64,000 bases of DNA. Source: a bacterium. GTDB lineage: Bacteria; UBP7; UBA6624. Each line of letters starts with the position of its first letter. Positions within the stretch are counted from its first letter, which is position 1. Made by a program: the position numbers and the translations under genes. Below are positions 7,138-61,400 of the stretch, one piece after another. Location: positions 1 through 64,000 of the forward strand of contig PBAU01000011.1 in the NCBI GenBank assembly GCA_002716355.1, written 5' to 3'. Under the pieces are notes generated by a model. That model saw nothing but the letters and a program-made list of their open reading frames with translations, was not told where the DNA came from and did not search any database.

Positions 7138-7143
7138 TAGAAT
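7138..7143 (+). promoter_or_regulatory. Candidate -10 box for leaderless tdh transcript
   Basis: TAGAAT lies 8 bases before the tdh ATG and 24 bases after the tRNA. At this spacing transcription would begin at or within a base or two of the start codon, and no Shine-Dalgarno sequence precedes the ATG. The -35 is weak (TTCCTA at 7115-7120 with a 17-nt spacer). Confidence 0.45.
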
Positions 7144-7151
7144 TAGAGTTA

Positions 7152-8198
7152 ATGAAAGCTTTATTAAAAACATCCAAAAGAAAAGGTTTTGAGCTTGCAG
7201 AAACAAGCTTGCCAACACCAAAACAAAATGAAGTTTTATTAAAGGTGAAGGTTTCTACTATATGTGGTTCTGACTTACATTTATGGGAGTGGAACCAGTG
7301 GGCTGACGATTTTGTACCTAGGTTGCCGTTAGGTGTTGGCCATGAAACATGTGGTGAGATTGTTGATTGTGGAAGTGATGTTGATCTCCGTAAATCAAAT
7401 CTTAGAATTGGAGATTTGGTCTCTGTGGAAACACATTTGTTTTGTGGTGATTGTCCTCCTTGTAAAAACAACAAAAAACATCTTTGCTCAAATGGTGAAA
7501 TTTTAGGTTTCCATAAGAATGGATCTTTTGCAGAGTGGCTAACTGTCCCAGTTGATAATTGCTGGAAAGCTCGTCAGGGTACAGACCCCGTAACAGTTAG
7601 TTTAAAAGAGCCTTTAGGCAATGCCGTTCAAACAGTTATGGCACAACCTATAAAAGGTAAGACGGTATTGATAACAGGAGCAGGCCCATTGGGCCTTATG
7701 ACAATTGCTGCAGCAAGAGCTTTTGGTGCAGGTCAAATTTTTGTAAGTGAACTGCAGGAAGAAAGGAGAGAAAAAGCTCTTGGCCTAGGTGCTGATCATG
7801 TTATTGACCCAAAAAATCAAGATTTACATTCTTTTATCAAAGAAGAAACAAAAGGAAAAATGTTTGACGTTCTTCTTGAAATTTCAGGATCTAACCAAGC
7901 TTTAAATGATGGATTAACATCAATTTCCAATGGTGGATCGGTTGCGTTACTGGGACTGTTTCCATCAACTGTTAATTTATCCTTAAATGAAAACGTTATA
8001 TTTAAAGGTTTGGTTATTAATGGCATAACAGGTAGATTGATATGGGATACATGGAGCCAGGTTGACAGTTTAATCTATGAGAAGGGTTTTGATCCAAAAA
8101 AATTATTAACACATAGTTTTAAAATTGAAGAATATGAAAAAGCTTTTAGCTTAATGGAAAAAGGGGTTTCTGGAAAAATTGCATTATTTCCTAGATGA
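7152..8198 (+). CDS. tdh: L-threonine 3-dehydrogenase
   Basis: A zinc, NAD-dependent medium-chain dehydrogenase that oxidises threonine to 2-amino-3-ketobutyrate in the cytoplasm. At 348 residues it has the family's usual length. Catalytic zinc ligands are visible as C38 (C-G-S-D), H64 and E65 (G-H-E). The structural zinc site has four Cys (C98, C101, C104, C112). The Rossmann motif G-A-G-P-L-G lies near residue 175. The next gene, kbl, starts within its stop codon (ATGA at 8195-8198), the classic threonine-to-glycine operon, which supports Tdh over other sorbitol-type dehydrogenases. The start is the only sensible ATG, with no ribosome site but a -10 box 8 bases upstream. Confidence 0.93.
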   Translation: MKALLKTSKRKGFELAETSLPTPKQNEVLLKVKVSTICGSDLHLWEWNQWADDFVPRLPLGVGHETCGEIVDCGSDVDLRKSNLRIGDLVSVETHLFCGDCPPCKNNKKHLCSNGEILGFHKNGSFAEWLTVPVDNCWKARQGTDPVTVSLKEPLGNAVQTVMAQPIKGKTVLITGAGPLGLMTIAAARAFGAGQIFVSELQEERREKALGLGADHVIDPKNQDLHSFIKEETKGKMFDVLLEISGSNQALNDGLTSISNGGSVALLGLFPSTVNLSLNENVIFKGLVINGITGRLIWDTWSQVDSLIYEKGFDPKKLLTHSFKIEEYEKAFSLMEKGVSGKIALFPR

Positions 8199-9421: not shown

Positions 9422-9430
9422 TTTTTAAGC

Positions 9431-11843: not shown

Positions 11844-11879
11844 TAAGATTAACGTTGAATATTATATTTGGAGGTAGTT

Positions 11880-13307
11880 TTGACTGATTATCCAACCGAT
11901 GGCATACATGATGAGCTGGAACGAGAGATTTCTTCGTACGGCGATGAAGCAGATGAAGAAAATCTTGAAACAGGTATAGATTTTGCTGTACATCAAGATT
12001 TAATACAGGAGGTTATTGATTTAAGTGCCTTAAAAGGTTATTTAACAACCGACGAGGTCCAACGTTTTATTGAGGAGAGAGATTTGGATCCAGAAACCAT
12101 TAATGGTTTATGGACAAAGCTTGAAGAAGATGGCGTCCAGGTTTTTACAGAAGAAGAATTAGCTAAAGGTTCAAAAAAGGTTAAAGACAGAAGAAGGAGG
12201 AGAGAGGAAGATCATTTCATCTCAGATACCGTTAAGTATTTTTTAAAAGAAATCAGTCATGATTACTTGTTGTCTAGAGATGAAGAGAGAAGCTTGGCTC
12301 AAGGTAAAGATGCGGGTGATGAAGATGCTGTTGAGACATTAGCTTCTAGCAATTTTAGACTCGTTGTTTCAATTGCTAGAAAATATTCCGGAAGAGGGCT
12401 TTCTTTTGTGGATCTTATACAGGAAGGTGTTTCAGGTTTAATGAGAGCCATTCAAAAATTTGACCATTCGAAAGGTTTTAAGTTTTCAACATATGCAACC
12501 TGGTGGATACGCCAAGCCATTACAAGAGCTCTAGCTGATCAAGGGAATATAGTTAGAAGACCTGTTCATATGGTTGAAACAATCAATAGGTATCGTAAGA
12601 TTGAAAGTCAGTTTGAGCAAGAACAAGGAAGAAAGCCAGACATGGAAGAAATGGCATATGCTTTAGGTTTAATCAGCCCAGATAAAGAAGAGCAGGTAAT
12701 GGACACCCTTGCGATATATAGAACTGCAGAGCAAGATTTTAAAAGTAAATTTAGACGCCCTCCTTCATGGAAAAAAGAAAGAGGGGATCTTTATGAAATA
12801 GCTCAACGTTGCAGCATACCTGTACCCCCTAGATCTGTTCATGGTGTTGGTTGGGCTCCAGAAAACAGAATGACCAAGGAAGACAGGATAGTATTGCGAG
12901 ATTTTAAAAAGAATTTAGATGAATGGGGAAGAGCTGTTGCCAGAATTTTAGAGATACAAAGATATGCTCAAGGGATTTTGTCATTGGAGTTACCGATCGG
13001 TGATGATGAAGATGCTTTATTGAAAGACTATATTGAAGATAAGAAGATTCCATTGCCTGATTATGAAGTCGGACAAGATTTTTTAAAGAGAGATTTGAAT
13101 CGAATATTGTCAAATCTTCTTGATGAAAGAGAGTATGAGGTTCTAGCTTTGCGGTATGGTTTAACCAATGCGACACCTTTAACACTGGAAGAGGTTGGGA
13201 AAAAGTTAAATGTAACTAGGGAAAGAGTCAGGCAGATTGAAAATCGAGCCATTAAAAAACTTAGAAATTCTCCTGATGCTGAAAAGTTGTCAGATTATAT
13301 TGATTAG
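11880..13307 (+). CDS. rpoD: RNA polymerase primary-type sigma-70 factor with insertion in region 3
   Basis: This group 1-like sigma factor (475 residues) directs RNA polymerase to promoters. It has a region 1.1-like acidic N-terminus (about residues 1-105), region 1.2 ([11 protein letters not shown]), regions 2.1-2.4 (about 150-225, with [13 protein letters not shown]), region 3, and region 4 with the helix-turn-helix [19 protein letters not shown] near 435-455. Region 3 is interrupted: about 70 extra residues separate the G-L-I-S-P-D-K helix from [12 protein letters not shown], which resumes the usual run into L-S-L-E-L-P-I-G. The start is a TTG at 11880, five bases after GGAGG (11870-11874). 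efp follows 5 bp downstream. Confidence 0.9.
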
Positions 13308-20128: not shown

Positions 20129-21273
20129 AATAGGCCGCTTTTTTCTGCTAGTATTTTTAGTTCCAAAAAATCTTCATGATTTGTTTTTTCAAAACCTTCA
20201 ATACTGTATATATTGTTTAATATTTCAAAAATTTTATTATTTTTTTCAGGCAGTTCAATAAAGATTTTTTCTATCTCTTTCATTAGATTTTCATCCAAGT
20301 CTCCTCTTGCTGCAACGATATCATTTGGTATTGGAGTCGTTAAGGCTAATTGAAAAATTTCACCATCCCATTTTTCTAAAATTTTAACTTCAGTCAATCC
20401 ACAAGTTGTTTTAATTGTTGTTTTGCTCTCAACCTCCATATTTTTTAAATAAGGCATTATTTCTTGTGCGATTGAATCAACAATAGGAGATTGATATCTC
20501 ATCAGTATATCCCAAAAATTTTTTTCTAAAGTATCATGTAAAAATGTATCAACACATATTTGTTTCATATCAGTAAAGGTAAGCTCAACTTTAAAACCAG
20601 GTGCTATATTTTCAAAATCATAAACAAAATTTTTTCTAGCATCTTCATAGGTTGCTCCAGCATCCCATTCACCTCTATATATCCCTTGTACGACATTGTC
20701 ATGGCTGCCCAACATTGCATAATTTTTTAAATCTGTTCGGTAGTCAATGCCTTCAGCAAGTAAGGTGATTTGAGGATAGAGAAAGCCACTTGTTGAAGCT
20801 GGGTCAGTGAATGCAAACAGTTTACCTTTAAGATCTTTTATTGACTCTATATTGCTTGACCGTGAGGCAAGAATTTGTGCCCTGTAGCTGTTTTTGCCAA
20901 ATCTTATCGTTCGCAAAAGTGGTTTTGTTGGAGTGTTTATTTTTTCAGTATCCCTGCGAGAAAGAAGATATGAAAATGGAGCCAAAAAACTAATGTCTAC
21001 TGTGCCAGCTTTCATTCCTGCGATTAAACCCATGTATTTCACAGCAACAAAGCTTTCTACTTTTAGTCCAGGATATTGCTCTTGAAGTTCTTTTTGAAGG
21101 TATTCTTCTAGCGGTTTGATGTCATCCTTGAGCGTTTGAGCTTGCTGACTCGGCACAAAGCCAATAACAAGAGTACATTGTTCAGGTTGTTTTTCAAAAT
21201 TACAGGTATTTGGTGTTGATGAACAGCTGTTTAGGCAAAGTAGAACGGTAATAAATAAGATTTTCTTATACAA
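20125..21273 (-). CDS. phnD: Phosphonate/phosphite-type substrate-binding lipoprotein
   Basis: A periplasmic binding protein of 382 residues with a lipobox L-N-S-C. The family pattern is clear: I-G-F-V-P-S-Q-Q near the N-terminus, G-L-I-A-G-M-K-A-G-T-V-D-I-S-F-L-A-P, the F-T-D-P-A-S-T-S-G-F-L-Y-P loop that contacts the phosphonate in PhnD/PtxB proteins, and D-A-G-A-T-Y-E. It leads the operon. The start is TTG at 21273, since there is no ATG in the frame and no ribosome site. A -10-like TACCAT lies 9 bases upstream. No C-P lyase or phosphite dehydrogenase is nearby, so phosphonate, phosphite and hypophosphite all remain possible ligands. Confidence 0.88.
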   Translation of the reverse strand: MYKKILFITVLLCLNSCSSTPNTCNFEKQPEQCTLVIGFVPSQQAQTLKDDIKPLEEYLQKELQEQYPGLKVESFVAVKYMGLIAGMKAGTVDISFLAPFSYLLSRRDTEKINTPTKPLLRTIRFGKNSYRAQILASRSSNIESIKDLKGKLFAFTDPASTSGFLYPQITLLAEGIDYRTDLKNYAMLGSHDNVVQGIYRGEWDAGATYEDARKNFVYDFENIAPGFKVELTFTDMKQICVDTFLHDTLEKNFWDILMRYQSPIVDSIAQEIMPYLKNMEVESKTTIKTTCGLTEVKILEKWDGEIFQLALTTPIPNDIVAARGDLDENLMKEIEKIFIELPEKNNKIFEILNNIYSIEGFEKTNHEDFLELKILAEKSGLL

Positions 21274-21281: not shown

Positions 21282-21296
21282 TATGGTAATACGATA
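21282..21296. promoter_or_regulatory. Shared bidirectional promoter-like core, copy 1
   Basis: TATGGTAATACGATA is a near-palindrome (three asymmetric positions). It carries TACGAT on plus and TACCAT on minus, both TA---T -10-like hexamers. It sits between the divergent phnD and symporter genes. The first 14 bases recur exactly at 24783-24796 between another divergent pair. Confidence 0.45.
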
Positions 21297-23948: not shown

Positions 23949-24773
23949 CTAAAAATCAGTAGGGTAGATTCCTTTTTGGAATTTTTTTAAAATTTCACCT
24001 TTCGTATATTCAAAATCTTCTTTATATGTCACTCCGCACCATTTCTCATGAGAGTAAAGAGCTTTTACTTGAATTTTTTTTTGATTTATCTCTTCTTGAA
24101 CGAATCCAGGTAATAAAAATTCAGAATCATTATCTTTGATTTCATCAATGAATTTCTTATAGCTTTTTTTTAAGCTTCCGAATATGCTGGGTTGAAAGCC
24201 CCAGAGGTTCATTGAAACAGGTGGATCACCTTCTGTGAATTCATTTAAATCATGTGTTTCTTTTATTTCAGTTAGGTTATTGTTTTTATCTATTTTGCAT
24301 ACACCTCTCGAGACTCCTCCATGGATAGACAATGTTTGCCTTAACGGGAAGGTCATTATTGCAGACCTTTGGTCAGATTGTAGAAATCGAATAAGCATTT
24401 TTATGGATTGTGATCCATAATAATCATCTGCATTTGCCACAATGAAGGGTTCATTGATATGGTTTTCTGCGCATAAAACAGCATGTCCCGTCCCTAATGG
24501 TTTGACCCGGTTTCTTATTGGGTTTTTCTGTAATACAAATTTTGTTTTTATTTTTTTAGAAATTTTTGAGAATTTTTCTTTTATTTGCTCTTGAGCATCT
24601 TCTCTTGTTATGAGGATGATTTTTGTGCACCCATGCTTCCATGCATCATATGCAGTTAACTCTGCTAAAGATTCACCATTTGGCCCAATTTTTTCAATTT
24701 GTTTTAGGCCCCCGTACCTAGAACCCATGCCAGCTGCAAGTATCAATAGCGATATTTGGTTATTGTGTTTCAA
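23949..24773 (-). CDS. Sugar-1-phosphate nucleotidyltransferase
   Basis: A 274-residue NTP transferase opening L-L-I-L-A-A-G-M-G-S-R-Y-G-G-L-K-Q, the G-x-G-x-R signature loop with its catalytic lysine. A-N-A-D-D-Y-Y near residue 115 is the metal-binding D-D site. This subtype (R-Y-G-G-L-K-Q followed by G-P-N-G-E) is commonly found beside NahK-like kinases, as here. Together they would activate a salvaged amino sugar to a UDP-sugar, bypassing the GlmS/GlmM route. The start is TTG at 24773, with no ATG in frame and no ribosome site. The shared 14-bp promoter-like core is 9 bases upstream. Confidence 0.82.
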   Translation of the reverse strand: MKHNNQISLLILAAGMGSRYGGLKQIEKIGPNGESLAELTAYDAWKHGCTKIILITREDAQEQIKEKFSKISKKIKTKFVLQKNPIRNRVKPLGTGHAVLCAENHINEPFIVANADDYYGSQSIKMLIRFLQSDQRSAIMTFPLRQTLSIHGGVSRGVCKIDKNNNLTEIKETHDLNEFTEGDPPVSMNLWGFQPSIFGSLKKSYKKFIDEIKDNDSEFLLPGFVQEEINQKKIQVKALYSHEKWCGVTYKEDFEYTKGEILKKFQKGIYPTDF

Positions 24774-24782: not shown

Positions 24783-24796
24783 TATGGTAATACGAT
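24783..24796. promoter_or_regulatory. Shared bidirectional promoter-like core, copy 2
   Basis: TATGGTAATACGAT is identical to 21282-21295. On plus, TACGAT (24791-24796) is 8 bases before the purL ATG. On minus, TACCAT (24789-24784) is 10 bases before the nucleotidyltransferase TTG. Both spacings predict leaderless or nearly leaderless mRNAs. Confidence 0.5.
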
Positions 24797-24804: not shown

Positions 24805-26952
24805 ATGGAACTCCAAGAAAAGCTCAAAAGCGTTGGATTAAAGCTTGAAGAATATGAAAATGCTAAAAAAATTGTAGGAAGAGATTTAAATAATATAGAA
24901 ATCGGTATATTGAGTACTGTTTGGAGTGAGCATTGTTCATACAAATCTTCAAAAATACATCTCAAGAGGCTGCCGGTCAAAGGAAGTCAGGTTGCCCAAG
25001 GACCTGGGGAGAATGCTGGCGCTGTTAGGCTGGGCGAAGGTTGGGTTGCTGTTTTTAAGATGGAAAGTCACAATCATCCATCAGCAATTGCTCCAAAACA
25101 GGGCTCAGCAACTGGTGTTGGTGGGATAATTCGAGACGTGCTTTCCATTGGGGCTCCAGCTTCAGCAGTATTAGACATTTTAATGTTCCCACAAGAGGAC
25201 TTTTCAAAAACGCCCTGGTATCTTAATGGTGTTGTTGATGGTGTTGGAAGTTATGGTAATTGTGTAGGTGTTCCTAATCTTGGAGGACAGACTAGTTTTT
25301 ATCCTGGTTATGAAGGGAACCCTCTTGTTAATGCGATGTGTGTTGGTTTGTGCAAGGAAGAGGATATGAAAAAAGCTGTAGCAAGCGGTATTGGCAACAG
25401 CCTTATACTTATTGGAGCGCCCACTGGGAGAGATGGGATTCACGGAGCCACTTTTGCCTCTATGGATTTAGATGAAGACTCAGGTGACGACCTTCCTGCT
25501 GTCCAGGTGGGAGATCCCTTTAGAGAAAAACTTTTAATTGAGGCAACTTCTGAAATCTTAGAACAATGTGAAGTTGTTGGTTTACAGGATTTGGGTGCAG
25601 GTGGCATCACGGGATCATCAGCAGAGATGGCTGGTGCAGCTGGTTTAGGTGTGATTGTGCATTTGGACAAAGTGCCTCAACGAGAAAAAGACATGCGTGA
25701 TTACGATGTTGCATTATCAGAAAGCCAAGAGAGAGCTTTGATATGTGCAACTCCAGAAAATGTAGAAAAAATCATTAGTATTGCAGAAAAATGGGATTTA
25801 AGAGCAGCGGAAGTGGGAGTAGTAACAGAGACAGGAAAATTACAAATGATGTGGAATGAAGAGATTGTATGTGATTTGCCAATAAGTCTTATTGATATGG
25901 ATCTTGAGTATGATAGACCGCAAAAAAAACCTGATTTAAAAAAAGCAGATTTTCAAACTTCATCCAATAACTTAGACGATATTGAAAATGTTCTATTAAA
26001 AATGTCTTCAAATCCAAATATAGCTAGTAAAAAGTGGGTTTGGAGACAGTATGACAGTCAGGTTCAAGCTTCAACAATTTTTAAACAAGGTAATGATTCA
26101 GGTGTAATCAAGGTTCCCAACTCTAATTTAGCAGTTGGGATGACTGCTGATGCAAAACCAATGTGGTGTTCTATTGATTCATACTGGGGTGCGGCTCATA
26201 CTGTTGTTGAAGCAGTGTGCAATCTTGCATCAAAAGGAATCAAGGCTTTAGGTACTACTAATTGTTTAAATTTTGGCAATCCAGAAAACCCTACTGTGAT
26301 GTATTCTTTCTCACAGGCAGTTGATGGCATAACAAAAGCATGCCTCGAGATGAATACTCCAATTACAGGTGGTAATGTTTCTTTCTATAATGAAAGTCCT
26401 GATGGTGCTATTCCTCCAACTCCTAGTATAGGAATGGTTGGAGTGGCAGAAGATGTTTCTGCGATCCTCGGGTCACAGATACATCCAGGTGATAAGGTTT
26501 ATGTTTTTGGAAATAAGCATTGGGACTTGGAGGGTTCTGAATTTTTAAGATATGTAATGGGATCCAAACAATCAATGCTTCCAGAACTAAATTTCCAAGA
26601 TGCAAGATCAAGCATAAATCAAGCAATCAAAATAAGAAAAGAAGCTAAGTGGATGGCTGATGTTTCCGAAGGTGGTATTTTTGATTGTGTTTTGAGAATG
26701 GTGCCTGAAGGTAATGGCATTAATCTTTTCTGTCCTGAGGGGATACATTGGACAAGTTTTTTGTTTTCTGAAGAGCCACATAGGTTTATTGTTTGTTGTG
26801 ATAAAGATATTAATGCAGATGACGCGATGTTGATAGGTGAAATTTCTAGAGAGGAAATTTTTTCAATTAAGAAAAAGGATGTTTTTTCTACTGATTTGAG
26901 AATTTTAAAAAATTCTTTTGAAAGCACAATTCAAAATATAGCTGATTTTTAA
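24805..26952 (+). CDS. purL: Phosphoribosylformylglycinamidine synthase, large subunit
   Basis: Fourth step of purine synthesis (FGAR to FGAM). From ATG 24805 it has 715 residues, the size of the small-type PurL that works with separate PurQ and PurS. Visible motifs are S-E-H-C-S-Y-K-S-S near residue 35, the ATP site region K-M-E-S-H-N-H-P-S-A-I, Q-D-L-G-A-G-G-I-T-G-S-S-A-E-M, and in the second half N-C-L-N-F-G-N-P. The frame is open back to 24610, but that part is antisense to the neighbouring gene and is rejected. An in-frame ATG at 24784 is also unlikely since it lies in the promoter-like core. purQ and purS are not in the window. Confidence 0.95.
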   Translation: MELQEKLKSVGLKLEEYENAKKIVGRDLNNIEIGILSTVWSEHCSYKSSKIHLKRLPVKGSQVAQGPGENAGAVRLGEGWVAVFKMESHNHPSAIAPKQGSATGVGGIIRDVLSIGAPASAVLDILMFPQEDFSKTPWYLNGVVDGVGSYGNCVGVPNLGGQTSFYPGYEGNPLVNAMCVGLCKEEDMKKAVASGIGNSLILIGAPTGRDGIHGATFASMDLDEDSGDDLPAVQVGDPFREKLLIEATSEILEQCEVVGLQDLGAGGITGSSAEMAGAAGLGVIVHLDKVPQREKDMRDYDVALSESQERALICATPENVEKIISIAEKWDLRAAEVGVVTETGKLQMMWNEEIVCDLPISLIDMDLEYDRPQKKPDLKKADFQTSSNNLDDIENVLLKMSSNPNIASKKWVWRQYDSQVQASTIFKQGNDSGVIKVPNSNLAVGMTADAKPMWCSIDSYWGAAHTVVEAVCNLASKGIKALGTTNCLNFGNPENPTVMYSFSQAVDGITKACLEMNTPITGGNVSFYNESPDGAIPPTPSIGMVGVAEDVSAILGSQIHPGDKVYVFGNKHWDLEGSEFLRYVMGSKQSMLPELNFQDARSSINQAIKIRKEAKWMADVSEGGIFDCVLRMVPEGNGINLFCPEGIHWTSFLFSEEPHRFIVCCDKDINADDAMLIGEISREEIFSIKKKDVFSTDLRILKNSFESTIQNIADF

Positions 26953-29309: not shown

Positions 29310-31945
29310 TTGTTTGTGCAGTTAGGCCAACATTTTTTATATTTTTTACCGCTGCCACAGGGACAAGGATCATTTCTTCCAACCTTTTTTAAATCATCTT
29401 TTTTACCAAGAAAGGCATTCATTTTTGTTTTAGTTTCTTTGTTTTCATTGTTTTGAATCGGCATTGGTTTTTCTTTTTGTTTGACTTTTGCCATAAACAC
29501 CGCCTGAATCACATCTCTTTGGATATTTTGGATAAGTATATTGAATAAATCAAAAGCTTCTTTTGCATAAACGGTCAGAGGGTCAACTCTTCCATATCCG
29601 CGCATCGACACGCCATCTCTTAAATTTGACATATCAGTTAGATGATTCATCCACCTTTTGTCAACTGCTCTTAATGCTGCCCATTTTGATAGCTGTTCCA
29701 TGATTGATTCACCCAGTTCCTCAACCCTTTTCCTCAAAGCATTTTTTGCAGATTCTTCTAATGTTTTTTCTATTTCAGAAGATTTTATATTTTCTTCTTT
29801 AAGCTTTTCTATTGCAGAGTCAGATAAAGGCATGACCACTGATAAATCTTGTTTTAACCCATCAATATTCCATTCCGATCTTTTCAATGATGTGGATGCA
29901 TGAGTTTCTATTGAGTTTTTTATTACGTCTGATATGAAGCCATCAATTTGTTTTAGGAAGTTGTTTATATTTAAAACATTTTCTCTTTCTTCATATATGA
30001 CCTTTCTTTGTTCATTTAGAACATCATCGTATTTCAGTAATGATTTTCTAACTTCGTAATGATGCCCCTCAATTCTTTTTTGGACATTTTCAATCATTCG
30101 ATCTAAAAGTGGATGGAATAATGCTTCATTTTCCGGCCATTGAAAACGACTCATCATTTCTTCAACCCTGTCAACAGCAAACCTACGCATGATGTCATCT
30201 TCTAAACTAAGTAGAAATTCACTAGACCCAGGATCACCTTGCCTGCCAGAACGTCCAATTAGTTGATTGTCAATCCTTCTCGCTTCATGTCGTTCTGTAC
30301 CTAAAACCTTAAGTCCTCCTAATTGGATAACCTTAGATGCTTCTTCTGCACATATCTGTTTTGCTTTTTTTGCATTTCTGTCTTTTATTTCCTTGCTTAA
30401 ATTTTCATCATCAGCTTTATGCCCTTCAGCTTCGATGAAATCTTTGGCTAAGAACTCAGGGTTACCGCCTAAAAGTATATCCGTTCCTCTTCCTGCCATG
30501 TTTGTAGCTATCGTCACGGCTCCATACCTTCCTGCCTGTGCAATTATGTTTGCTTCTTTTTCATGATGTTTAGCGTTAAGAACATTATGTAGTATTTTTT
30601 CTTTTTTTAGCATTTTTGATAATTTTTCACTATTTTCAATTGAAACGGTTCCAACCAGCACAGGTTGGCCCAAAGTGTTAGATTCTTTTATTTTTTTGAT
30701 AGCAGCTTGGTATTTCTCATGTTGTGATTTGTAAACTTCATCTCTGAATTTTTTTCTTTGCAGGTTTTGATTTGTTGGAACTGACATAACATCCATGTTA
30801 TAGATATCTATAAATTCCCTTTCTTCTGTTTTGGCGGTTCCAGTCATTCCTGAAAGTTTTTCATAGAGTCTGAAATAATTTTGAATTGTTATTGTTGCTA
30901 CAGTCAGTGTTTCAGCACGTATCGGAACCCTCTCTTTTGCCTCGATTGCTTGATGGAGGCCATCGCCATATCTCCTACCAAACATTAACCTACCTGTAAA
31001 TTCATCAACAATAATAATTTGCCCTTCTTTAACAATGTAGTCTCTTTCTTTCTGATAGAGAAATTTTGCCTTCAATGCTTGAGAGACTTTTTGATTGATT
31101 TGTGCATTTTCAAAATCAAATAAATTCTTTACATTTAGAGTATTTTGAATTTTGTCTACCCCTTGTTCATTTAAAACTACAGAATGTGATTTTTCTTCAA
31201 TTTCAACATCGTTTTGATTTATTTTCACAACTGCACGGTAAACAGATTCATACTCCCCAGTTGTTCCACTTGGTGGTCCTGATATTATCAAAGGAGTTCT
31301 TGCTTCATCAATCAATATGCTATCAACCTCATCCACAATTGCGAAAGAGTGACCCCTTTGTACTTTGTCATTATTGTTGTAAACCATATTGTCTTTCAGG
31401 TAATCGAAACCAAATGCAGAATTTGTTCCATAGGTTATGTCATTTTGGTATATTTGTTTTCTTTCTGCATTTGGTTTATCTTGCTGAAGTGATCCATAGT
31501 TCAAACCCATAAAACTGTAAAGAGGCCCCATCCATTCAGCATCTCTTTTAGCTAAATAATCATTAACTGTTACAACATGTACACCTTTTCCTGATAATGC
31601 ATTTAGGTAAACTGGCAGTGTTGCTGAAAGTGTTTTTCCTTCCCCCGTTACCATTTCAGCAATTCTTCCTTGATGCAACGCCGTTCCACCTAGAATTTGA
31701 ACATCATAATGTCTCATGCCAAGCGTTCTAACTGAGGCTTCTCTGACCGCAGCATATGCCTCAGGGAGTATTGAGTCAAGCTTTTCACCATTGCTGATTC
31801 TTGATTTAAATTCAGGGGTTAATCTTTGGATATCTCCATCAGAAAGTTTTTTCATTTTTTCTTCAAGAGAAGAAACCTTATTTAAGATTGGTTGAAGCTT
31901 CCTTACCTCAATTTTATTTTTGCTAAAATACTCTAAAAAGTTCAT
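29306..31945 (-). CDS. secA: Preprotein translocase ATPase SecA
   Basis: The motor of Sec export. It has 879 residues, normal length. The DEAD-type motor is seen in M-V-T-G-E-G-K-T-L (Walker A), V-D-E-V-D-S-I-L-I-D-E-A-R-T-P-L-I-I-S-G (Walker B region), M-A-G-R-G-T-D-I-L-L-G-G and R-Q-G-D-P-G-S-S. The C-terminus ends in a zinc-binding SEC-C motif (C-P-C-G-S-G-K-K-Y-K-K-C with a final Cys four residues on). It overlaps the upstream lptC/A-like stop by one base (TAATG) and lnt downstream by four. Confidence 0.97.
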   Translation of the reverse strand: MNFLEYFSKNKIEVRKLQPILNKVSSLEEKMKKLSDGDIQRLTPEFKSRISNGEKLDSILPEAYAAVREASVRTLGMRHYDVQILGGTALHQGRIAEMVTGEGKTLSATLPVYLNALSGKGVHVVTVNDYLAKRDAEWMGPLYSFMGLNYGSLQQDKPNAERKQIYQNDITYGTNSAFGFDYLKDNMVYNNNDKVQRGHSFAIVDEVDSILIDEARTPLIISGPPSGTTGEYESVYRAVVKINQNDVEIEEKSHSVVLNEQGVDKIQNTLNVKNLFDFENAQINQKVSQALKAKFLYQKERDYIVKEGQIIIVDEFTGRLMFGRRYGDGLHQAIEAKERVPIRAETLTVATITIQNYFRLYEKLSGMTGTAKTEEREFIDIYNMDVMSVPTNQNLQRKKFRDEVYKSQHEKYQAAIKKIKESNTLGQPVLVGTVSIENSEKLSKMLKKEKILHNVLNAKHHEKEANIIAQAGRYGAVTIATNMAGRGTDILLGGNPEFLAKDFIEAEGHKADDENLSKEIKDRNAKKAKQICAEEASKVIQLGGLKVLGTERHEARRIDNQLIGRSGRQGDPGSSEFLLSLEDDIMRRFAVDRVEEMMSRFQWPENEALFHPLLDRMIENVQKRIEGHHYEVRKSLLKYDDVLNEQRKVIYEERENVLNINNFLKQIDGFISDVIKNSIETHASTSLKRSEWNIDGLKQDLSVVMPLSDSAIEKLKEENIKSSEIEKTLEESAKNALRKRVEELGESIMEQLSKWAALRAVDKRWMNHLTDMSNLRDGVSMRGYGRVDPLTVYAKEAFDLFNILIQNIQRDVIQAVFMAKVKQKEKPMPIQNNENKETKTKMNAFLGKKDDLKKVGRNDPCPCGSGKKYKKCWPNCTNK

Positions 31946-34281
31946 TAATCAATTGATATGCTGCCTTGAGCTTTTTCTATAGTTCCTTTTTCTACAATTA
32001 AATCCCATACAAACCTATCACCTTTCAAGATGTTGCCGTCTTTGTATTGGACTATGACATCATCATAAAAAATTATATTTTCTGCATTTGTTCTTACCTT
32101 TGCGTAGTTAGCATTAACATTAACATCCTGGTGTTTCATTGTTACATTGCCTTCAAACTTGTAACCACCATCTTCTTCTAAGGCTGAATCAGATGATATT
32201 TTTGTTTTAGTGTTTTTGTACTCCCAAGAAATTGGGCCTAAGGCTTCCCAAAAATCATTTATTTTAATTAGCTTGTTTGCGAATAGTTGATCTTTTTCAC
32301 CTTCGATTCTTGGGTACCCTTCCAATGTTGATACATCTTCATCTTTTGACCATTGCCATTTTTCACCATAAGCTTTTCTTTTTTCCGCTTCATTTTCTAT
32401 CAAAACATTACCAACTATGGACATTTGACTGCTGTCTTCTTTCATACTTCCTAATTCACCTTTTATTGTCCATTCTGGATGTTTGATTTTTGGTTTGTTC
32501 ATTTCCCAAAAATGATCATCCGAAAAGACTTTATCGGTAGTGATGATTATATTTTCCAGAACACCAAGCCATCCTTTTTTACTCGTCATTTGCAATCCGT
32601 CTATTGAATATTCATTATCAGCATTAATTGTGATTTTTTGCATTTCTCCAATCCAGGTTGTGTTTTCAATCGTGCATGATTCAGAACAGTGTAGGCTAAC
32701 GGGACCCCATTGAAAATTTATTTTATCTCCATTTAATTCAAGATCTTTAACAAGAACTTTTGTGCTTAATGGTGAAAGACCTGTTTTTTCATCTGTGTCT
32801 AATTGAAGTGTTTTTGATTCGAGATGTAAATTTTTATTTAGTGATATTCGAGCTTCGGTAAGATCGAATATATTTTTATCAGTTTGTGTTGAAAGACTTA
32901 AAGCAATGATTTCATTCTCGTCAATACTTCCTTTTAATGGTCCTGACCTAATTAATTTTAATTCTTTTTGATAGTTGAGATTTTGAACTTCTCCTTCAAA
33001 TATTTCTTTGTAACTTAATTGACTATTGCCTAGAAATTTTACTAATTCTGAATTTATTCTTGCAGCTTGTGAAAAAGTTTTAAAATCATTATTTTTGTAC
33101 TCTGCAGAACCATTTATTTTTAATTGTTCTAAATTTGGATCCCACTCTCCATTTTCTCCACCTATAAAAACAGTTCCTTCAGACCATGAAAACCCACCTT
33201 GTAGTAAATATTTTTTAGGATCTTGAGTCACTTCCAGCAAGCCACTGATGTTTAAAAATGGTAGCCCGCCAGTATCAAAAAAATTTTTCTGCATTTGCAT
33301 TGATGCTGGCCCGTTCAGCTTTAAGTATTCATTATTTTTGTTGAAAAAACCAGAATCAGCTTTGAGAATTTTGTCATCCTCTTCAAAGGTAATGTTTTTT
33401 TCGAAATTAAAATAACCTGGATTCCAGTAATACTCAACATTATCTGCCGTTATCTTTCTTGGATTTTTTGATGACTTCTCCTCTATTTTTACATTTTCTG
33501 AAAGATACGCTACGTAATCTTTGCTTTTTGCTTGCAAGATTTCAGCACTGATATCCCAATTTTTTATTTTTAATGTTGGTTTTCCAGGAGGTGAAAGTTG
33601 AGGTATTCCCAATGATTTGAAAACCGGCTCTCTGTTTGCTGTTATTAACGCTTGAGGCCTTTTGTCTTCATCCCAATTTTTAGATTGAGCTGTAATTATT
33701 CCATTTTGAGTGTTGTAAACAGCAAGCCCTCCTTCCACATGTGGATCCTCAGGACTTTTCAATAGTTTAGCGTGCCATCGCCCTATAAGGAGAACATTGT
33801 CTTCGTTTGTCTCAAATAGTACATCTTCACCAGTGATGTCAATATCTAAATTTTTCAAGCTTACAGAGTCTGGAAAAAATAAAAGTTGGGATTTTTTCGT
33901 CCATAAAGCTTTCATTGTTCTTGCAACAATACCATCATTTGTTTTTGCTGAAAAAGGTCCTTGGAATTCAAGTGTTTCCATAAGGTCGTTGTATTTTGCA
34001 GATTCTGAATTAACCTCCACATAAGGTTCGTAATTTCTATAAAAAATTGCTTCAGTTATATCTTTTATCAACCATAAATTTTCTTTTGTTTCCTCAAGGT
34101 TGTTTGTGATTATTTTTGCTATTTGCCTTTCTTGATCCCAGATTGTTATTTTAGACTCGTATATTCTTCTAGGCTCACCTTTTATAGCAAACAATAGTTG
34201 AGTTTCTTTTTGACCTATTTTGTTGATCCAGATTGTTATAAAAAATAAAAAAATAATGACAAATATATATTTTTTATGCAT
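31945..34281 (-). CDS. Long LptC/LptA-like (OstA-domain) LPS export protein
   Basis: 778 residues with a single N-terminal membrane anchor (about residues 5-22) and no lipobox, followed by a region that reads like LptC (K-I-T-I-W-D, then a strand-rich segment to about 150). The rest is strand-rich, with repeated patterns of OstA/LptA type (G-D-K-I-N-F, Y-K-F-E-G-N-V-T-M-K, N-A-E-N-I-I-F-Y-D-D-V-I-V-Q-Y, L-K-G-D-R-F-V-W-D). LptC is normally about 190 and LptA about 180 residues, so this looks like an anchored LptC with several OstA-type modules in one chain, perhaps forming the periplasmic bridge alone. It heads an operon with secA and lnt. Confidence 0.7.
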   Translation of the reverse strand: MHKKYIFVIIFLFFITIWINKIGQKETQLLFAIKGEPRRIYESKITIWDQERQIAKIITNNLEETKENLWLIKDITEAIFYRNYEPYVEVNSESAKYNDLMETLEFQGPFSAKTNDGIVARTMKALWTKKSQLLFFPDSVSLKNLDIDITGEDVLFETNEDNVLLIGRWHAKLLKSPEDPHVEGGLAVYNTQNGIITAQSKNWDEDKRPQALITANREPVFKSLGIPQLSPPGKPTLKIKNWDISAEILQAKSKDYVAYLSENVKIEEKSSKNPRKITADNVEYYWNPGYFNFEKNITFEEDDKILKADSGFFNKNNEYLKLNGPASMQMQKNFFDTGGLPFLNISGLLEVTQDPKKYLLQGGFSWSEGTVFIGGENGEWDPNLEQLKINGSAEYKNNDFKTFSQAARINSELVKFLGNSQLSYKEIFEGEVQNLNYQKELKLIRSGPLKGSIDENEIIALSLSTQTDKNIFDLTEARISLNKNLHLESKTLQLDTDEKTGLSPLSTKVLVKDLELNGDKINFQWGPVSLHCSESCTIENTTWIGEMQKITINADNEYSIDGLQMTSKKGWLGVLENIIITTDKVFSDDHFWEMNKPKIKHPEWTIKGELGSMKEDSSQMSIVGNVLIENEAEKRKAYGEKWQWSKDEDVSTLEGYPRIEGEKDQLFANKLIKINDFWEALGPISWEYKNTKTKISSDSALEEDGGYKFEGNVTMKHQDVNVNANYAKVRTNAENIIFYDDVIVQYKDGNILKGDRFVWDLIVEKGTIEKAQGSISID

Positions 34282-34287: not shown

Positions 34288-34293
34288 ATTCTA
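34288..34293 (-). promoter_or_regulatory. Candidate -10 box for leaderless lptC/A-secA-lnt transcript
   Basis: TAGAAT on the minus strand lies 6 bases before the ATG at 34281, too close for a leader. There is no Shine-Dalgarno sequence. No -35 box is apparent. Confidence 0.45.
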
Positions 34294-34336: not shown

Positions 34337-35362
34337 ATGTTTTTAAAATCTTTAATTCGTAAAAAAGAAAAAGATCACAAGTTTATCACCCATTTATCCA
34401 GTAATCCATTTATTTATGGTTTGAAATCGGTTGTTGATTTGCAAATTTCACATAACTTAGATTTCATAAAAAAATCAAATAAACCTTATATAGCATGGCA
34501 TCCTACTAAAAAAAGTTTTAGCAATGCAATTTGGGAACATTGCATCAAGGTAGGCCGTCCAGCATATTTTGCCGAAAGAGGGGCACTGCCTAACACAGTT
34601 GTTATTGACCCTGGGGGTTTTTTAAGCGATTCTCCTTCTTATTTTGAGCATAATTGGAATAATCCACTTTCCGATAGTCAGAAAAATATTATTGATGAAT
34701 ATGTGGATACGCTTAAGGGTAAAGATGAATCTTTGGAATTTCAAGAAAGCAATCGCATGGGTTCAGACTCCTTTTCTGAAAAACTTGCTTTAAATGGTAA
34801 GCATGTTGTTTTTGTCCCGCTTCAGCTTGCTAACGACACAGTGATTCAGCGTTGGTGTGACTGGGTTAAGGATTTGAAATCTTTTCAGGATATAGTCGAA
34901 CAAGTTGCTGTCTATTGTCCGGATGTTGTTTTTTTGGTTAAAAATCATCCAATTGCTAGAAATCCAAAATCATCAACGCCCTTAATGAGTGCCAATAGGA
35001 ATATTTTTGTTGTTGATGAATTTCATTACAAAGATTGCCTTGATGTTGCAGATAAGGTTTTAACTATCAATTCTGGAGTCGGGCTGCAAGCGATGGCGTG
35101 GAGCGTTCCAACAATAGTAACCGGGCGAGCTTTTTATAATTTTGAAAAAATAAACCAAAGAGCAACCAGCATTGATGATATTGTCGGCATGATAAAGGAT
35201 GATTTTGCTGTAAGTCATGAAAGATCAAGAAGGTTTTTGTATTTTTTAAAATTTAAAATGTATAGTGATTGCATTCAATATAAGTCAAAAAAAAATCGTT
35301 ATAGAAACGCAACCACAAGGTGTAAATATTTGAATATAAGAATTCCTGAATGTAATAAATAG
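34337..35362 (+). CDS. Capsule-synthesis-type glycosyltransferase (KpsC/KpsS-like, retaining beta-Kdo transferase family)
   Basis: 341 residues. A-Y-F-A-E-R-G-A-L-P-N-T-V-V-I-D-P-G-G and the later L-T-I-N-S-G-V-G-L-Q-A-M-A-W-S-V-P-T with G-R-A-F-Y are hallmarks of the Capsule_synth family, which includes the KpsC/KpsS beta-Kdo transferases that build the capsule linker. A CMP-Kdo synthetase gene (54203-54952) occurs in the same window, so the donor could be available. No other capsule genes are near, so it may act on LPS or another glycan. About 1.0 kb fits a single-domain KpsS-like form. Confidence 0.75.
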   Translation: MFLKSLIRKKEKDHKFITHLSSNPFIYGLKSVVDLQISHNLDFIKKSNKPYIAWHPTKKSFSNAIWEHCIKVGRPAYFAERGALPNTVVIDPGGFLSDSPSYFEHNWNNPLSDSQKNIIDEYVDTLKGKDESLEFQESNRMGSDSFSEKLALNGKHVVFVPLQLANDTVIQRWCDWVKDLKSFQDIVEQVAVYCPDVVFLVKNHPIARNPKSSTPLMSANRNIFVVDEFHYKDCLDVADKVLTINSGVGLQAMAWSVPTIVTGRAFYNFEKINQRATSIDDIVGMIKDDFAVSHERSRRFLYFLKFKMYSDCIQYKSKKNRYRNATTRCKYLNIRIPECNK

Positions 35363-35397: not shown

Positions 35398-35427
35398 ATT
35401 TTTTGTTATTGATACAAGGAGGTACAA

Positions 35428-35748
35428 ATGACAATCGAACTTAATGAGGATAATTTTTCAGATACTATAAACACAGGTATAACCTTAGTTGATTTTTGGG
35501 CGGAATGGTGTGGCCCATGCAAAGCAGCTGCCCCATATGTTGATAAACTTGCCGATCAGGTTGGCGATAACGCCAAGGTTGTGAAGGTTAATGTTGACGA
35601 AAGCCCTTCTATTGCTTCTCAGTTTGGGGTTATGAGTATTCCGACTTTCATTCTGTTTAAGGATGGAGAGGTTATCGAGAGAACTTCTGGCTTCACGCCA
35701 AATTTTATTGCTGAATGGACTGAAAAGATAGATTCAGCTCTTCTTTAA
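35428..35748 (+). CDS. trxA: Thioredoxin
   Basis: A 106-residue cytoplasmic disulfide reductant with the active site W-C-G-P-C-K (residues 27-32) and the cis-proline loop M-S-I-P-T-F. There is no signal peptide. The start follows AAGGAGG by five bases, one of the best ribosome sites in the window. mnmA starts 2 bp after the stop; MnmA chemistry uses persulfide and thiol exchange, so joint expression is sensible. Confidence 0.95.
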   Translation: MTIELNEDNFSDTINTGITLVDFWAEWCGPCKAAAPYVDKLADQVGDNAKVVKVNVDESPSIASQFGVMSIPTFILFKDGEVIERTSGFTPNFIAEWTEKIDSALL

Positions 35749-47157: not shown

Positions 47158-48165
47158 TCAGTAGTTATCAAAAAATACTATCGAAATTCGTTCCTCTTTT
47201 TCATTACTTGTTATATTTTTTGAGACATCCCAATTGATTTCCCAATTTGAATTTAATCTGACTGAGTAACGAATTATTTCCCCTTTTGAAAAAGGGTTAT
47301 TTGCACCAGAGCTGTTTATCGAACCATCTGAGAAAATAAAAGTTCCTTTGCCCATGCTTCCCCAATTTGGCAAAAGTGCCCCAGGTTCCCAAGCCCCATA
47401 ATTAAAACCCATGGAAAAATTTTCTTTAATCGGTAGGTTTAATTGAAGAAGGTAAGCATTGTCTCTTTTCTTTGCTAATGGATTGTTTGCACCAAGCCCA
47501 TTGTTACCATCTGATTGAAGATATTCGATCTTTAAACTGGTTTTGCCAAGCTGATGGCTTGTTGACATAAACACTGCGGACCAGTCTTCATTTGTGCCCA
47601 ATGCATTATTCGTGTCATTGTTTGAGGCGGAAGTTATGCCGAAATTCAAATCAGATGAACTGTAAGCAAGATTCACCCTAGTAGAAAATACATTGATGCC
47701 TTTGTCTGTTTGGTCATTGTTCTGTTTTGCCCATATGAAATCCAGATGTCCCGTTTCAGAGAATAAAGATTCACCCTTTATGTAAATGCCGTCAAAGGAA
47801 GAATTATCACCATTATTTTCACCTGAATCAAATAGAAGGTTATTGCCAAAGAAACCACCTGGCATCCTTCCTGTGTAAACAAAACCCCAATCTTGTTTCC
47901 AGTAAACATTCCCCCTTTCCAATGCAGCATCTTCATTATTGAGGCTTCCGAATTCATCATCCTGAAAAGTTCCTAGTATGTTTATTATTGAATTATCCTT
48001 TTCCAGTGATGTGCCTATCCGTGTCCTCCAAAGAAAACTCTCATTGTTGCTAGTGTTGTTTGATGATATCTTGACCCCTTCTAGCCTGATATCACCGAAA
48101 TATTCATTTGCATTCAGTTGAAGTGAAAGCAAAGGGATTAAAAAAAGTAAAAGTATTTTTTTCAT
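47158..48165 (-). CDS. Outer-membrane beta-barrel (porin-like), paralogue of the next gene upstream
   Basis: 335 residues with a signal peptide (L-L-L-F-L-I-P-L-L-S-L-Q-L-N-A-N). The mature part is strand-rich with alternating aromatic residues and ends F-F-D-N-Y, an aromatic C-terminus typical of outer-membrane barrels. The segment T-G-R-M-P-G-G-F-F-G-N-N and later S-L-K-I-E-Y-L-Q-S-D-G align with the 48247-49053 gene, so the two are diverged tandem paralogues. It begins the long operon that carries meaB and icmF, so it could take up a substrate of those enzymes, but that is inference. The -10 box is only 6 bases from the ATG. Confidence 0.75.
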   Translation of the reverse strand: MKKILLLFLIPLLSLQLNANEYFGDIRLEGVKISSNNTSNNESFLWRTRIGTSLEKDNSIINILGTFQDDEFGSLNNEDAALERGNVYWKQDWGFVYTGRMPGGFFGNNLLFDSGENNGDNSSFDGIYIKGESLFSETGHLDFIWAKQNNDQTDKGINVFSTRVNLAYSSSDLNFGITSASNNDTNNALGTNEDWSAVFMSTSHQLGKTSLKIEYLQSDGNNGLGANNPLAKKRDNAYLLQLNLPIKENFSMGFNYGAWEPGALLPNWGSMGKGTFIFSDGSINSSGANNPFSKGEIIRYSVRLNSNWEINWDVSKNITSNEKEERISIVFFDNY

Positions 48166-48171: not shown

Positions 48172-48177
48172 ATTATA
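48172..48177 (-). promoter_or_regulatory. Consensus -10 box, leaderless start, overlapping a terminator
   Basis: A perfect TATAAT (minus strand) is 6 bases before the ATG at 48165. A matching -35, TTGGCC (48199-48194), with a 16-nt spacer lies in the loop and 3' arm of the upstream terminator. Transcription would start at or next to the ATG. Confidence 0.6.
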
Positions 48178-48246: not shown

Positions 48247-49053
48247 TTAGAAAGAAGCAGAGTAATCTACTGACATCCATTCAGCACCGTCGTGGTCTAC
48301 GTTTGAGAAACTCCAGTTTCCACCCCAAGAAAGAGTGAATCTAGTGATCTCATTAGCAGTTCCACCACCGAAACCGCCACCCCATGTGTGAGCATTAGTA
48401 GCGTCACCCATTTGGATGCTAAGACCTAGGTCATCATTGATTCCATAACCCAAAGTCATGTTTGTGCCGTCAAGACCGTTGTCGTCCATCCATTCGATGT
48501 CCAAACTTGCTGCGCCACCAAGATCCATGGAAGCAGAAATCCACATTGAGTCGCCGCCACCGTTATCAACGGTACCGAGAGTCATGCCCCAACCGACCAT
48601 GTCGCTTAGGTCTGTAGACATACCAGTACTACCAGCTCTGTCATCCCAGATGTTTAGTGCCCAACCGCCTACGTTACCAAGGGAGATGTGGTGACCGTTG
48701 AAAGTACCACCCATACCCATGTTGTAAGCCATGTCGTCACATGCCATACTGTTTCCTATCATGCCACAAGGCATAATACCTGTGTGCCAAGTACCCCAAG
48801 AATTGTTCCAACCAGTGTAAGCGTGGTTCAAAGCTGCGCTTGTTCCCGCACCTGCTCCTTGGTCGTCCCAACCCAAATTCCAACCCCAAGCTGCGCTGAA
48901 GTTGTCTGAGATGTCTGCACCGTCAGACCAGGTCATGTCAGTGCTAATACCATCATTATTACCGTCATCCCAGTGTCTAACTCTAATGTCGCCCGCGTTT
49001 AGCGCGCTAGTTGCTACAAAAAGAATTGCAGCAAAAATTGCCAATTTTTTCAT
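48247..49053 (-). CDS. Abundant-type outer-membrane beta-barrel protein rich in Trp, Gly and Asp
   Basis: 268 residues with a clear signal peptide (F-A-A-I-L-F-V-A-T-S-A-L-N-A). The mature protein is unusually rich in W, G, D and N (for example A-W-G-W-N-L-G-W-D-D) and ends in S-V-D-Y-S-A-S-F, an aromatic C-terminus as in barrels. Two cysteines (M-P-C-G and M-A-C-D-D) may form a disulfide. Codons look different from neighbours, with many C-ending codons, as expected for a highly expressed gene. It has a strong GGAGG site, a long leader and its own terminator, also consistent with high output. Likely a major small porin. Confidence 0.75.
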   Translation of the reverse strand: MKKLAIFAAILFVATSALNAGDIRVRHWDDGNNDGISTDMTWSDGADISDNFSAAWGWNLGWDDQGAGAGTSAALNHAYTGWNNSWGTWHTGIMPCGMIGNSMACDDMAYNMGMGGTFNGHHISLGNVGGWALNIWDDRAGSTGMSTDLSDMVGWGMTLGTVDNGGGDSMWISASMDLGGAASLDIEWMDDNGLDGTNMTLGYGINDDLGLSIQMGDATNAHTWGGGFGGGTANEITRFTLSWGGNWSFSNVDHDGAEWMSVDYSASF

Positions 49054-49263
49054 TACGTTTAACCTCCGTAATCATAAATTTGTAGTGAGAGTTACCTATG
49101 TTTCCTCTACACCACATTAAGCTAATTCTACTACAAATCAGATAAAAGTAAAAAAAACGCCAAAAAACCAAGTCTTTTATTTTTTATATAAAAATAAAGA
49201 ATATGTAAAAATATACCTTTTTAGTTGCTTTTTAGTGTTTTTAATAAAGGAATAAATGGTTTT
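49054..49263 (-). promoter_or_regulatory. Promoter region of the abundant barrel gene with a 9-bp inverted repeat
   Basis: This 210-bp stretch holds no gene. On the minus strand a TAGAAT (49130-49125) lies 71 bases before the ATG; AT-rich DNA further up could act as an UP element. An exact 9-bp inverted repeat (ATTTGTAGT at 49078-49086 and ACTACAAAT at 49130-49138, 43 bases apart) brackets the likely start site. GGAGG is at about 49061-49065. Confidence 0.45.
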
Positions 49264-56746: not shown

Positions 56747-56783
56747 TTACTTGTTTTTTTTAGAAATCAGGATATTATTACTA

Positions 56784-56789: not shown

Positions 56790-56796
56790 TTTACTT

Positions 56797-58420: not shown

Positions 58421-58427
58421 TAAAAAA

Positions 58428-58433
58428 TAGAAT
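58428..58433 (+). promoter_or_regulatory. Candidate -10 box for leaderless transcript of the J-like repeat protein
   Basis: TAGAAT ends 7 bases before the ATG at 58441. TTGCTA at 58404-58409 could be the -35 with an 18-nt spacer. No ribosome site precedes the ATG. Confidence 0.45.
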
Positions 58434-58440
58434 TTTAACA

Positions 58441-61400
58441 ATGATTTTTGGCTTTAAACAAAATCCTAAAAAAAAGATATTAGCTTTTTTTAAAAAAGGT
58501 AAAAGCGATAGCGCTATAGAGCACCTCGAAAAATCCTGGAGTGAGATAGGCGTTCAAGATCGAGTAGAGATATTAGATTCATGGACTTTAAAGAAATCAG
58601 ATAATGAGATGCAGCAAAAATGGTTATCTTTTGTTGAGAAGCATGCTTCGGACCAAGGCCCTTTGGATGATCTGGAAAGTAAAATCCGCAAAAATGCTGA
58701 TAATGATTATGTTTTTGATTATGAGTTATGGGTTAATTTAGCCAACCAGCATAAAAATGATTTTTTCTTGGTGCTTGCTACTGGAAATGAAATTTTTCCA
58801 TATGGTGATTATTCTTCTTTTTTAAAAAATAAAATCGATCCATTATTTATTTTTTTTATGAGGAGAAGATTAGCTTCTGAGTTAAAAATTTGCAAAGAAT
58901 TATTACCCTTTTTGAAACACCTTGTGAAAGGTGATAAAGATGATATGGTGAAAAATTTATATGTTGAATATTTATTCAAACATAAGATATGGGAACAAAA
59001 AAATATTTCACTTGTGCAAAATTATTTAGTTAAAAATTTTAAGAATACAGATATTTCAGACTGGGCATTCCAGAATCTAAAAGCCCCTCTTTCGGATAAG
59101 TGGTTCGATTTGTTGAAGCGGTCTTTCAAGAGTAAACCTACGTCTTCTAATAAAAAATTACTTGCATGGTGTTGTTTTGAAAAAGGTATATATTTTGAGC
59201 CTTTGGAGGAAGAGATTGCTAACATAGGTATGCAAAATAAAAATACTAGATTGAAAGCAGTTGACATATTGTTGAGGTCAAAAAAACCAACCCCTCAAAC
59301 GGTTAAGCTTTTCTGCCTGTCTTCTTCTGAGTGTCCTTCAAATGAGTTAATTTTGATTTTTTTAATTCAGCATCTTGAAGATGAGAAGTTGTTACACACA
59401 CTTGTTTCTGCAAGAAATATTAATGAGAATTTAATTTCAGAATTTTTTTCAAGATGGAAAAAATCAACTCCAAGTGATTTAAATCTTGTTGTTAGGGTTC
59501 TTCAGCAATCATTATCGTTGGGTTTGAGCTTATCAAAAAATGAATTAAAAATATTCTCTTCTTTAAGAGATCAAAAGGTTCTTTTTTGGCTTGCATCACT
59601 TGGGTTTGTTTCTGAAAATTTTGAATTAGTACAGGATTTAATTGGACGTATGGATAAAAAAATAAAATCTTATTTTGAATACAAGATGAATCTTCATTTT
59701 TCAAACAAGAAATACGATTTCTTGAAAAATCATTTTGATTTCCCTTGGAGCCTTATGGACAAGGCTCAATATCTTGAAAGCATTTCAGAATTCACAAAAG
59801 CAAATGAGATATACAAGGAGGCTTGCGGAACCAAACATTATTCAGGTATATTCGCGAAATTAAAAATGGTAGCTAATGGTGTTGAGGTTTTGACTGATTC
59901 TGATTTCAAAAAAATGAAAAATATTTCAAGTTCAGACTTAGCTGAACTGTTTTTCTTGAATGGTTTGTTTTACGTGGACAAAGGTAACTGGCTGCAATGT
60001 GAAAACTTCTTCAAGAAAGCTTATGAGCAAAAAGAAGATAAACGTTATATAAGTTCTTTAATTGAAATTTATTACAGATGGTCATCGGAATTGATATTGG
60101 AAAAAAAATTATCCAAAGCACAAGCTATTATTGAAAAAGGCCTGTCTATCGGTGATGATCCAAGATTAGTGAAGAATTTGATTTTGACAAATCCTAAAGT
60201 CACATCATGGAATCAAATAAAAAAAATAAAATTAAAAAATATTGAAGACGAATTGTTATCAGATTATTTCTGGATTGCCTGGCGTTCTGGAGATTATAAA
60301 AATGCTGATGCTGCCTTAAAGAGATGCATACCTTTAAGCAAATCTGAGACATTTATTAAAAGAATCGCTCGGTATTATTTAGAAATGCCAATTCCAAAAG
60401 ATGACAGTTTGAAAGGTAAAATTTGGGAAAAATTACATGTTTTGAATCGTCCATGGCTTACTGCTGCTATAGCTGTATCTCAAGATGAAAAACCACCTTT
60501 TCCAAAAGAGGTACCGTCTGGAATTGAAAAATTATTAACAGGTTGGAGTTTAATGCAGATTGGCCAATTAGAAAATGCACAATTTCATTTTTCTAAACTT
60601 TTAAATGGACCTATAAAAAATCTTGGAACTGGCATTAAAAGAGCAAGGTCACATATTGTTTTAGGTTATTGCCTTTTGGCCTGTAGGGATCTTGAATCTG
60701 CGGAAGAGGCGTGGAGCCGAAGTGCTCATTTCGGTATTAGCAATTCCCTTGTTAGCACTTTAAAATTTGTGATTGAACTAGAAAAAGGGGTTAAGAAAGC
60801 TTTGGCTGGAAGAAACCCATTGAAAAATTATGTGAAAGCTTTAAATCATCCAATTACAAAAGATGCTGCCGAAAAAAATTTAGCCATTCATTTTACTTTT
60901 TCAGGAGATTTTTTAAATGCTGGTAAGTATTGGGACAGTCTTGTTGAGAACTTTTCTGAAAAAAAATCCCCAGAAGAAGAGGTTTGGCTTGATATAAGTA
61001 TCCAGATGGCAAGCTATTGTCACAAAATTAAGGATGGGAAAGATATTAATTTGATAGAGATGGCAGCTTTGGAGGATGAGGTTGAAAACATAAAGAAACA
61101 ACTTAAGAGTTATAGAGATTTAGGAGTTGATCCAGGTGTTTCTGAAGATGACTTGGAAAGAGCTTATTTCCAGCGTATCAAAAATTTCACACCTGAAAAA
61201 AATCCAGAAGAATTTCGAAGAATAGAAGAAGCAAGGCAGTTTATTGCAGATCCAGACTTGAGATTAAGGACTGAATTGTTCACTCAGTCTGGCGTAAAAA
61301 AGAATAAACTGCTTCAGTTTTTGTCTTTTTATGAATGTGATCCATTAGATTTTTTTGTTGATCTGGTTGAAAAACCTGATTTTCTTCCTGAATTAACCTT

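Follow-up and report, generated by a model that had tools for sequence, protein, structure and literature searches.

The prediction of leaderless genes from a TA-type signal lying close to the start codon is well established, and genes led by such a signal have been described, in Actinobacteria and Deinococcus-Thermus in particular (Zheng et al. 2011, PMC3160421). In Deinococcus-Thermus, a TANNNT motif is found 6–7 bp before about one third of ORFs, and it has been demonstrated by reporters and transcriptomes that this -10 motif acts as a promoter without a -35 element and gives rise to leaderless mRNA (Zhong et al. 2025, PMC12340547). The domain-wide survey included in the latter work was based on completely sequenced genomes, with species without clear classification omitted. 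Another relevant arrangement is represented by the bidirectional promoters of E. coli, where divergent transcription uses a shared symmetric -10 element and the transcription start sites lie 18 bp apart, distances of 10 and 23 bp being also common (PMC12825309, its ref. 16).

Here, hexamers of the same type are described in front of operon-leading genes in a different bacterial lineage. We consider it probable (about 0.86), judging from sequence, that the boxes are sigma-70-type -10 elements giving leaderless mRNAs at about 40% of operon-leading genes. RNA polymerase would recognise TANAAT/TAGRAT and initiate 6–9 nt downstream, and the 5′ end of the RNA is expected to coincide with the start codon or to lie 1–2 nt away from it. 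The leaderless mRNA would then be translated without any Shine-Dalgarno (SD) contact, the ribosomes presumably engaging the 5′-terminal AUG, while internal genes and a minority of leading genes would rely on ordinary SD-led initiation.

Genomes and Gene Calling

The window is the whole stretch of 64,000 nucleotides under analysis (positions 1–64000 of contig C11) and belongs to G000, a draft genome of 1.26 Mb in 16 contigs. Searches at the phylum and order levels returned three genomes only, namely G000, G001 from the same genus, and G002 from the same family. The stretches analysed comprise 604 kb of G000 (about half of the genome), 429 kb of G001, and 274 kb of G002, with GC contents of approximately 36–37% (about 36% in the window), 35.6%, and 52.6%, respectively. 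G000 and G001 are not independent samples, as they have common orthologues, while G002, with orthologues sharing on average 49% amino-acid identity with those of G000, is nearly so.

Start codons were picked by a home-made script using coding potential only, so that upstream signals were unable to bias the choice. A gene was regarded as operon-leading if its upstream neighbour was divergent or separated by more than 20 nt, and as internal if the same-strand gap was 20 nt or less. No match to 16S rRNA was obtained at the family's threshold in the whole genomes of G000, G001, and G002, which probably reflects binning loss in draft genomes; the anti-SD tail is unreadable for this reason.

Start Regions in the Window

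The first-pass annotation had listed five gene starts in the window with a -10-like hexamer 6–8 nt upstream and without an SD sequence. All five hexamers were recovered with the same positions and spacings, and a GGAG, GAGG, or AGGA core is present at 0/5 of these starts. The features are as follows:

7138..7143, plus strand: TAGAAT, putative -10 box of tdh, 8 nt before the ATG at 7152
7152..8198, plus strand: tdh-like zinc alcohol/threonine dehydrogenase gene (Pfam ADH_zinc_N, ADH_N), predicted leaderless
24791..24796, plus strand: TACGAT, putative -10 box of purL, 8 nt before the ATG at 24805
24805..26952, plus strand: purL, 715 aa (Pfam AIRS, AIRS_C, FGAR-AT linker), predicted leaderless
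34288..34293, minus strand: TAGAAT, putative -10 box of the lptC/A-like gene, 6 nt before the ATG at 34281
31945..34281, minus strand: LptC/LptA-like gene (Pfam LptC, LptD_N), predicted leaderless
48172..48177, minus strand: TATAAT, putative -10 box of the gene at 48165, 6 nt before the ATG at 48165
58428..58433, plus strand: TAGAAT, putative -10 box of the J-like gene, 7 nt before the ATG at 58441

Three boxes, those of tdh, purL, and the lptC/A-like gene, are retained in G002 at 5–7 nt despite its 53% GC. For tdh, the hexamer and spacing are the same in G001, and in G002 5 nt separate TAGAAT from the aligned TTG start. The purL box forms the 3′ part of a conserved 14-bp element (see below); it keeps the 8-nt spacing in G001, and in G002 the distance from TACGAT to an in-frame ATG is 7 nt. 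The start of purL should be placed at 24805 and not at 24610 because homologues match the shorter protein from its first residue. The extended reading frame beginning at 24610 is a caller error and overlaps the divergent nucleotidyltransferase gene, whose start is separated from that of purL by a gap of 31 bp. At the lptC/A-like gene, the block CTAGAATTGTTTTATG is conserved in G001 with the flanking sequence diverged, and in G002 TAAAAT is found 6 nt before an in-frame GTG.

The two other boxes are confirmed by no relative. The box of the gene at 48165 lies directly behind a terminator-like hairpin; the homologue in G001 is a copy without a start (the match begins at residue 32), and G002 has none with a start. 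The box of the J-like gene is situated just past the stop codon of the preceding gene; the J-like gene has no homologue in G001 and only 25% identity in G002. Single boxes, notably these two, could individually be chance hits.

Genome-Wide Enrichment and Spacing

A shuffle-controlled count of hexamer-to-start distances, proposed by the first-pass annotation as a check, was run on the 604 kb of G000 and gave a strong and position-specific enrichment. TANRAT was scored 5–9 nt upstream of operon-leading starts, with 300 dinucleotide shuffles as the null. It is present in 47/209 leading genes of G000 (shuffles 8.1 ± 2.8, maximum 15), in 22/131 of G001 (5.0 ± 2.2, maximum 12), and in 23/100 of G002 (1.2 ± 1.1, maximum 6). 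The favoured hexamers are TAGAAT and TAGGAT, with G preferred at position 3 (TAGRAT), and in G000 the remaining key positions are nearly invariant (T1 0.93, A2 0.95, T6 0.94).

Five control bacteria, E. coli among them, show no such peak or only a marginal one. At 6–9 nt, TANRAT was found in 3/102 leading genes of G012 (35.5% GC), 0/127 of G004, 0/121 of G014, and 3/77 of G009 (37% GC), and at 5–9 nt in 2/114 leading genes of E. coli. A count of TAGRAT-N6,7-ATG against the reversed pattern, performed on whole genomes without gene calls, gave 49/22 in G000, 34/12 in G001, and 113/13 in G002. Among 57 other bacteria, most ratios are near 1:1 and a few are high (for example, G021 59:3, G018 42:8, and G006 44:9), as expected since this start mode is known elsewhere.

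It might be argued that AT-rich intergenic DNA is simply rich in TANAAT-like hexamers, from which those near starts have been selected; indeed, the window has only about 36% GC, and TANNNT is common upstream of all genes. However, shuffling leaves 8, 5, and 1 genes where 47, 22, and 23 are observed, the peak is sharpest in G002 with 53% GC, and the GC-matched controls G012 and G009 yield three genes each at 6–9 nt. A chance origin of the signal genome-wide was rejected on the shuffle counts, and we regard it as exceedingly improbable.

Where an operon-leading gene has a box in G000 and the same start in G001, the box is kept with identical spacing (15/15); columns -14 to -9 are identical in these genes (identity 1.00), and in leading genes without a box the same columns show an identity of about 0.78–0.87. 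Between G000 and G002, 4/5 same-start box genes keep the box, tdh among them. As two family members 17 GC points apart retain the boxes, composition bias should hardly affect a -10 consensus derived from them.

The mode of the spacing is 6 nt in G002, the sharpest case, where 15/23 box genes have exactly this distance, and 7–8 nt in the AT-rich G000 and G001, where it spreads over 6–9 nt; leaders of 1–3 nt could thus be present on some RNAs of the latter. This spread is one reason to consider that the boxes are real -10 elements serving leaders of 1–5 nt, or that translation really begins at a downstream codon with an SD of its own. Another is that some starts are uncertain, as the mis-extended purL illustrates. 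A downstream start would not produce the phasing between box and start codon that the G002 spacing indicates, and the N-termini of relatives align from residue 1; a leader of 1–3 nt would be functionally leaderless anyway. This alternative is in our opinion unlikely.

A secondary TANRAT peak was noticed 13 nt from the start in 7 leading genes of G000 and 6 of G001, for example, at the gene at 34337. The mRNAs of such genes may begin with a short leader, about 6 nt long.

Two Predicted Modes of Initiation

The first-pass annotation had set the box genes against three genes of the window with GGAGG, and the motif is indeed present at all three (the gene at 1137 being its pilT):

1123..1127, plus strand: GGAGG, SD of the gene at 1137
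35417..35422, plus strand: AGGAGG, SD of the 106-aa trxA-like gene at 35428
49063..49067, minus strand: GGAGG, SD of the barrel gene at 49053

The division into two modes suggested on this basis extends to the genomes analysed: box genes never carry GGAG/GAGG, and operon-internal genes are SD-led. GGAG or GAGG was found in 0/92 box genes (0/47 in G000, 0/22 in G001, and 0/23 in G002, some orthologues being counted twice) versus 26–39% of internal genes, with per-genome p values of 3e-6 to 0.003. A motif model seeded with TANAAT stays TA-type at the leading genes of G000, G001, and G002, and turns into AAGGAG at internal genes and at the leading genes of four control bacteria.

With a two-motif model, the TA-type share of leading genes was estimated as 0.37, 0.39, and 0.42 (bootstrap 0.37–0.55), so that about 40% of operon-leading genes appear to be TA-type and are predicted to be leaderless. 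A one-motif model had put the leaderless share at 44–56%, a figure dropped in favour of the two-motif one, as some SD sites were mixed in. The box is also found at some internal genes (17/315). Start-codon usage did not tell box genes from SD genes (ATG in 51/59 versus 31/35 in G000), with a gene caller that itself favours ATG.

Compact Divergent Pairs and a 14-bp Element

Divergent genes in this family are closely packed. The median start-to-start gap is 51 bp in G000 and G001 and 73 bp in G002. The four controls have medians of 85–238 bp (Mann-Whitney p = 6e-12), and the value for E. coli is 196 bp. The usual distance between divergent start codons is 25–60 bp, often with back-to-back boxes, and gaps of this size leave little room for a promoter plus a leader on each side. 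Among the G000 pairs with such a gap (n = 24), a near-start box is present on at least one side in 18 and on both sides in 7. The leading element from an unbiased search upstream of boxes is a reversed box 15–17 nt away, and the ratio of back-to-back to convergent boxes in G002 is 10:1.

At C66:9617-9626 of G002, the palindrome ATTCTAGAAT represents an overlapping -10 pair, with the divergent start codons 26 bp apart.

The conserved element at purL occurs twice in the window:

24783..24796, plus strand: 14-mer TATGGTAATACGAT, exact match before purL
21282..21295, plus strand: 14-mer TATGGTAATACGAT, exact match between divergent genes

The second copy is located in the 26-bp region between the genes starting at 21273 (minus strand) and 21300 (plus strand), the latter encoding an SSF-type sodium:solute symporter. 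Both places are also occupied in G001, and the one before purL in G002; no other copy with up to one mismatch was found in G000, G001, or G002. Since the 14-mer contains the putative -10 of purL, it is a candidate operator, and it may serve a small regulon.

Promoter Nature of the Box

The hexamer also fronts tRNA genes, which undergo no translation, and it is for this reason that we regard it as a transcription element. TANRAT was found 5–20 nt upstream of 18/25 starts of tRNA genes or tRNA arrays in G000 and G001, and at none of these 25 starts between -60 and -21. In G002, it precedes 0/4 testable tRNAs, a small sample.

These data bear on the possibility that the hexamer is a translational signal, such as an AU-rich enhancer or an aberrant SD, within leadered mRNAs. 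Its distance from the start is SD-like, AGGA is contained in TAGGAT, and a -35 element is not visible. Nevertheless, besides the untranslated tRNA genes with the same hexamer upstream, the box is concentrated at operon-leading genes, internal genes having AAGGAG; TAGAAT and TAAAAT contain no SD core; the conserved T1, A2, and T6 are the positions of a -10 element; and divergent starts 25–60 bp apart offer scant space for two promoters and two leaders. We find a translational role very unlikely. The narrower idea of the box as an SD variant, suggested by TAGGAT, was rejected on the tRNA evidence.

Upstream of the boxes, TTGACA matches at spacers of 16–18 were no better than at other offsets, and an unbiased k-mer search there revealed no clear motif except reversed boxes. 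If the boxes are -10 elements, their presumed reader is encoded in the window:

11868..13307, plus strand: primary sigma factor RpoD (Pfam regions 1.1, 1.2, 2, 3, and 4)

Region 2.4, which reads the -10 element (WWIRQAIT), and the -35-reading helix (TRERVRQIE) are conserved in RpoD. At the same time, alignment with the best-matching PDB sigma shows that region 3 holds an insert of about 87 residues, which separates helix 3.1 from the sigma finger, and that RRPVHM stands where E. coli has RIPVHM; both the insert and RRPVHM are common to G000, G001, and G002. A broader, speculative, and rather doubtful scenario is that the phylum has shifted largely to -10-only promoters with the modified RpoD as their reader and leaderless mRNA as the default for leading genes. 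If true, the change in RpoD would let RNA polymerase dispense with the -35 element and would pack divergent starts into about 35 bp. With the boxes and the insert-bearing primary sigma factor considered together, -35-independent promoter recognition becomes directly testable.

Comparison with Known Systems

Reading the boxes as -10 elements of leaderless mRNAs places a Gram-negative, poorly sampled lineage among those in which leaderless initiation seems to be a principal mode. This reading also has a practical side, as SD-based tools will misannotate start codons in such genomes. No report of a leaderless start mode in this lineage was found in the literature searched.

With the TA-led genes (PMC3160421), the genes described here share a TA-like -10 signal about 10 bp upstream, the absence of an SD, and the coexistence with SD-led genes in the same genome; likewise, the signal is TAtAAT-like in low-GC genomes and TAnnnT in high-GC ones. 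Unlike in them, the box shows a preference for G at position 3 (TAGRAT), the signal is linked to operon-leading genes and compact divergent pairs, and the lineage is a different one, with three species for the phylum. As in the Deinococcus-Thermus motif (PMC12340547), T1, A2, and T6 are nearly invariant and the distance to the ORF is short; sites of regulators such as DdrO overlap the Deinococcus motif, and the 14-bp element of purL overlaps the box here. In contrast to that system, the evidence here comes from sequence, and TAGAAT/TAGGAT are favoured and not TACACT.

Both here and at the bidirectional promoters of E. coli (PMC12825309), transcription runs back to back out of a very short intergenic region. 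Most pairs here differ from the latter, whose geometry is tighter, in having two separate boxes with start codons 25–60 bp apart, and the palindromic site of G002 is a possible exception resembling a shared symmetric -10. Leaderless initiation itself is known; the lineage is new for it, and the unusually compact divergent promoters are a local feature.
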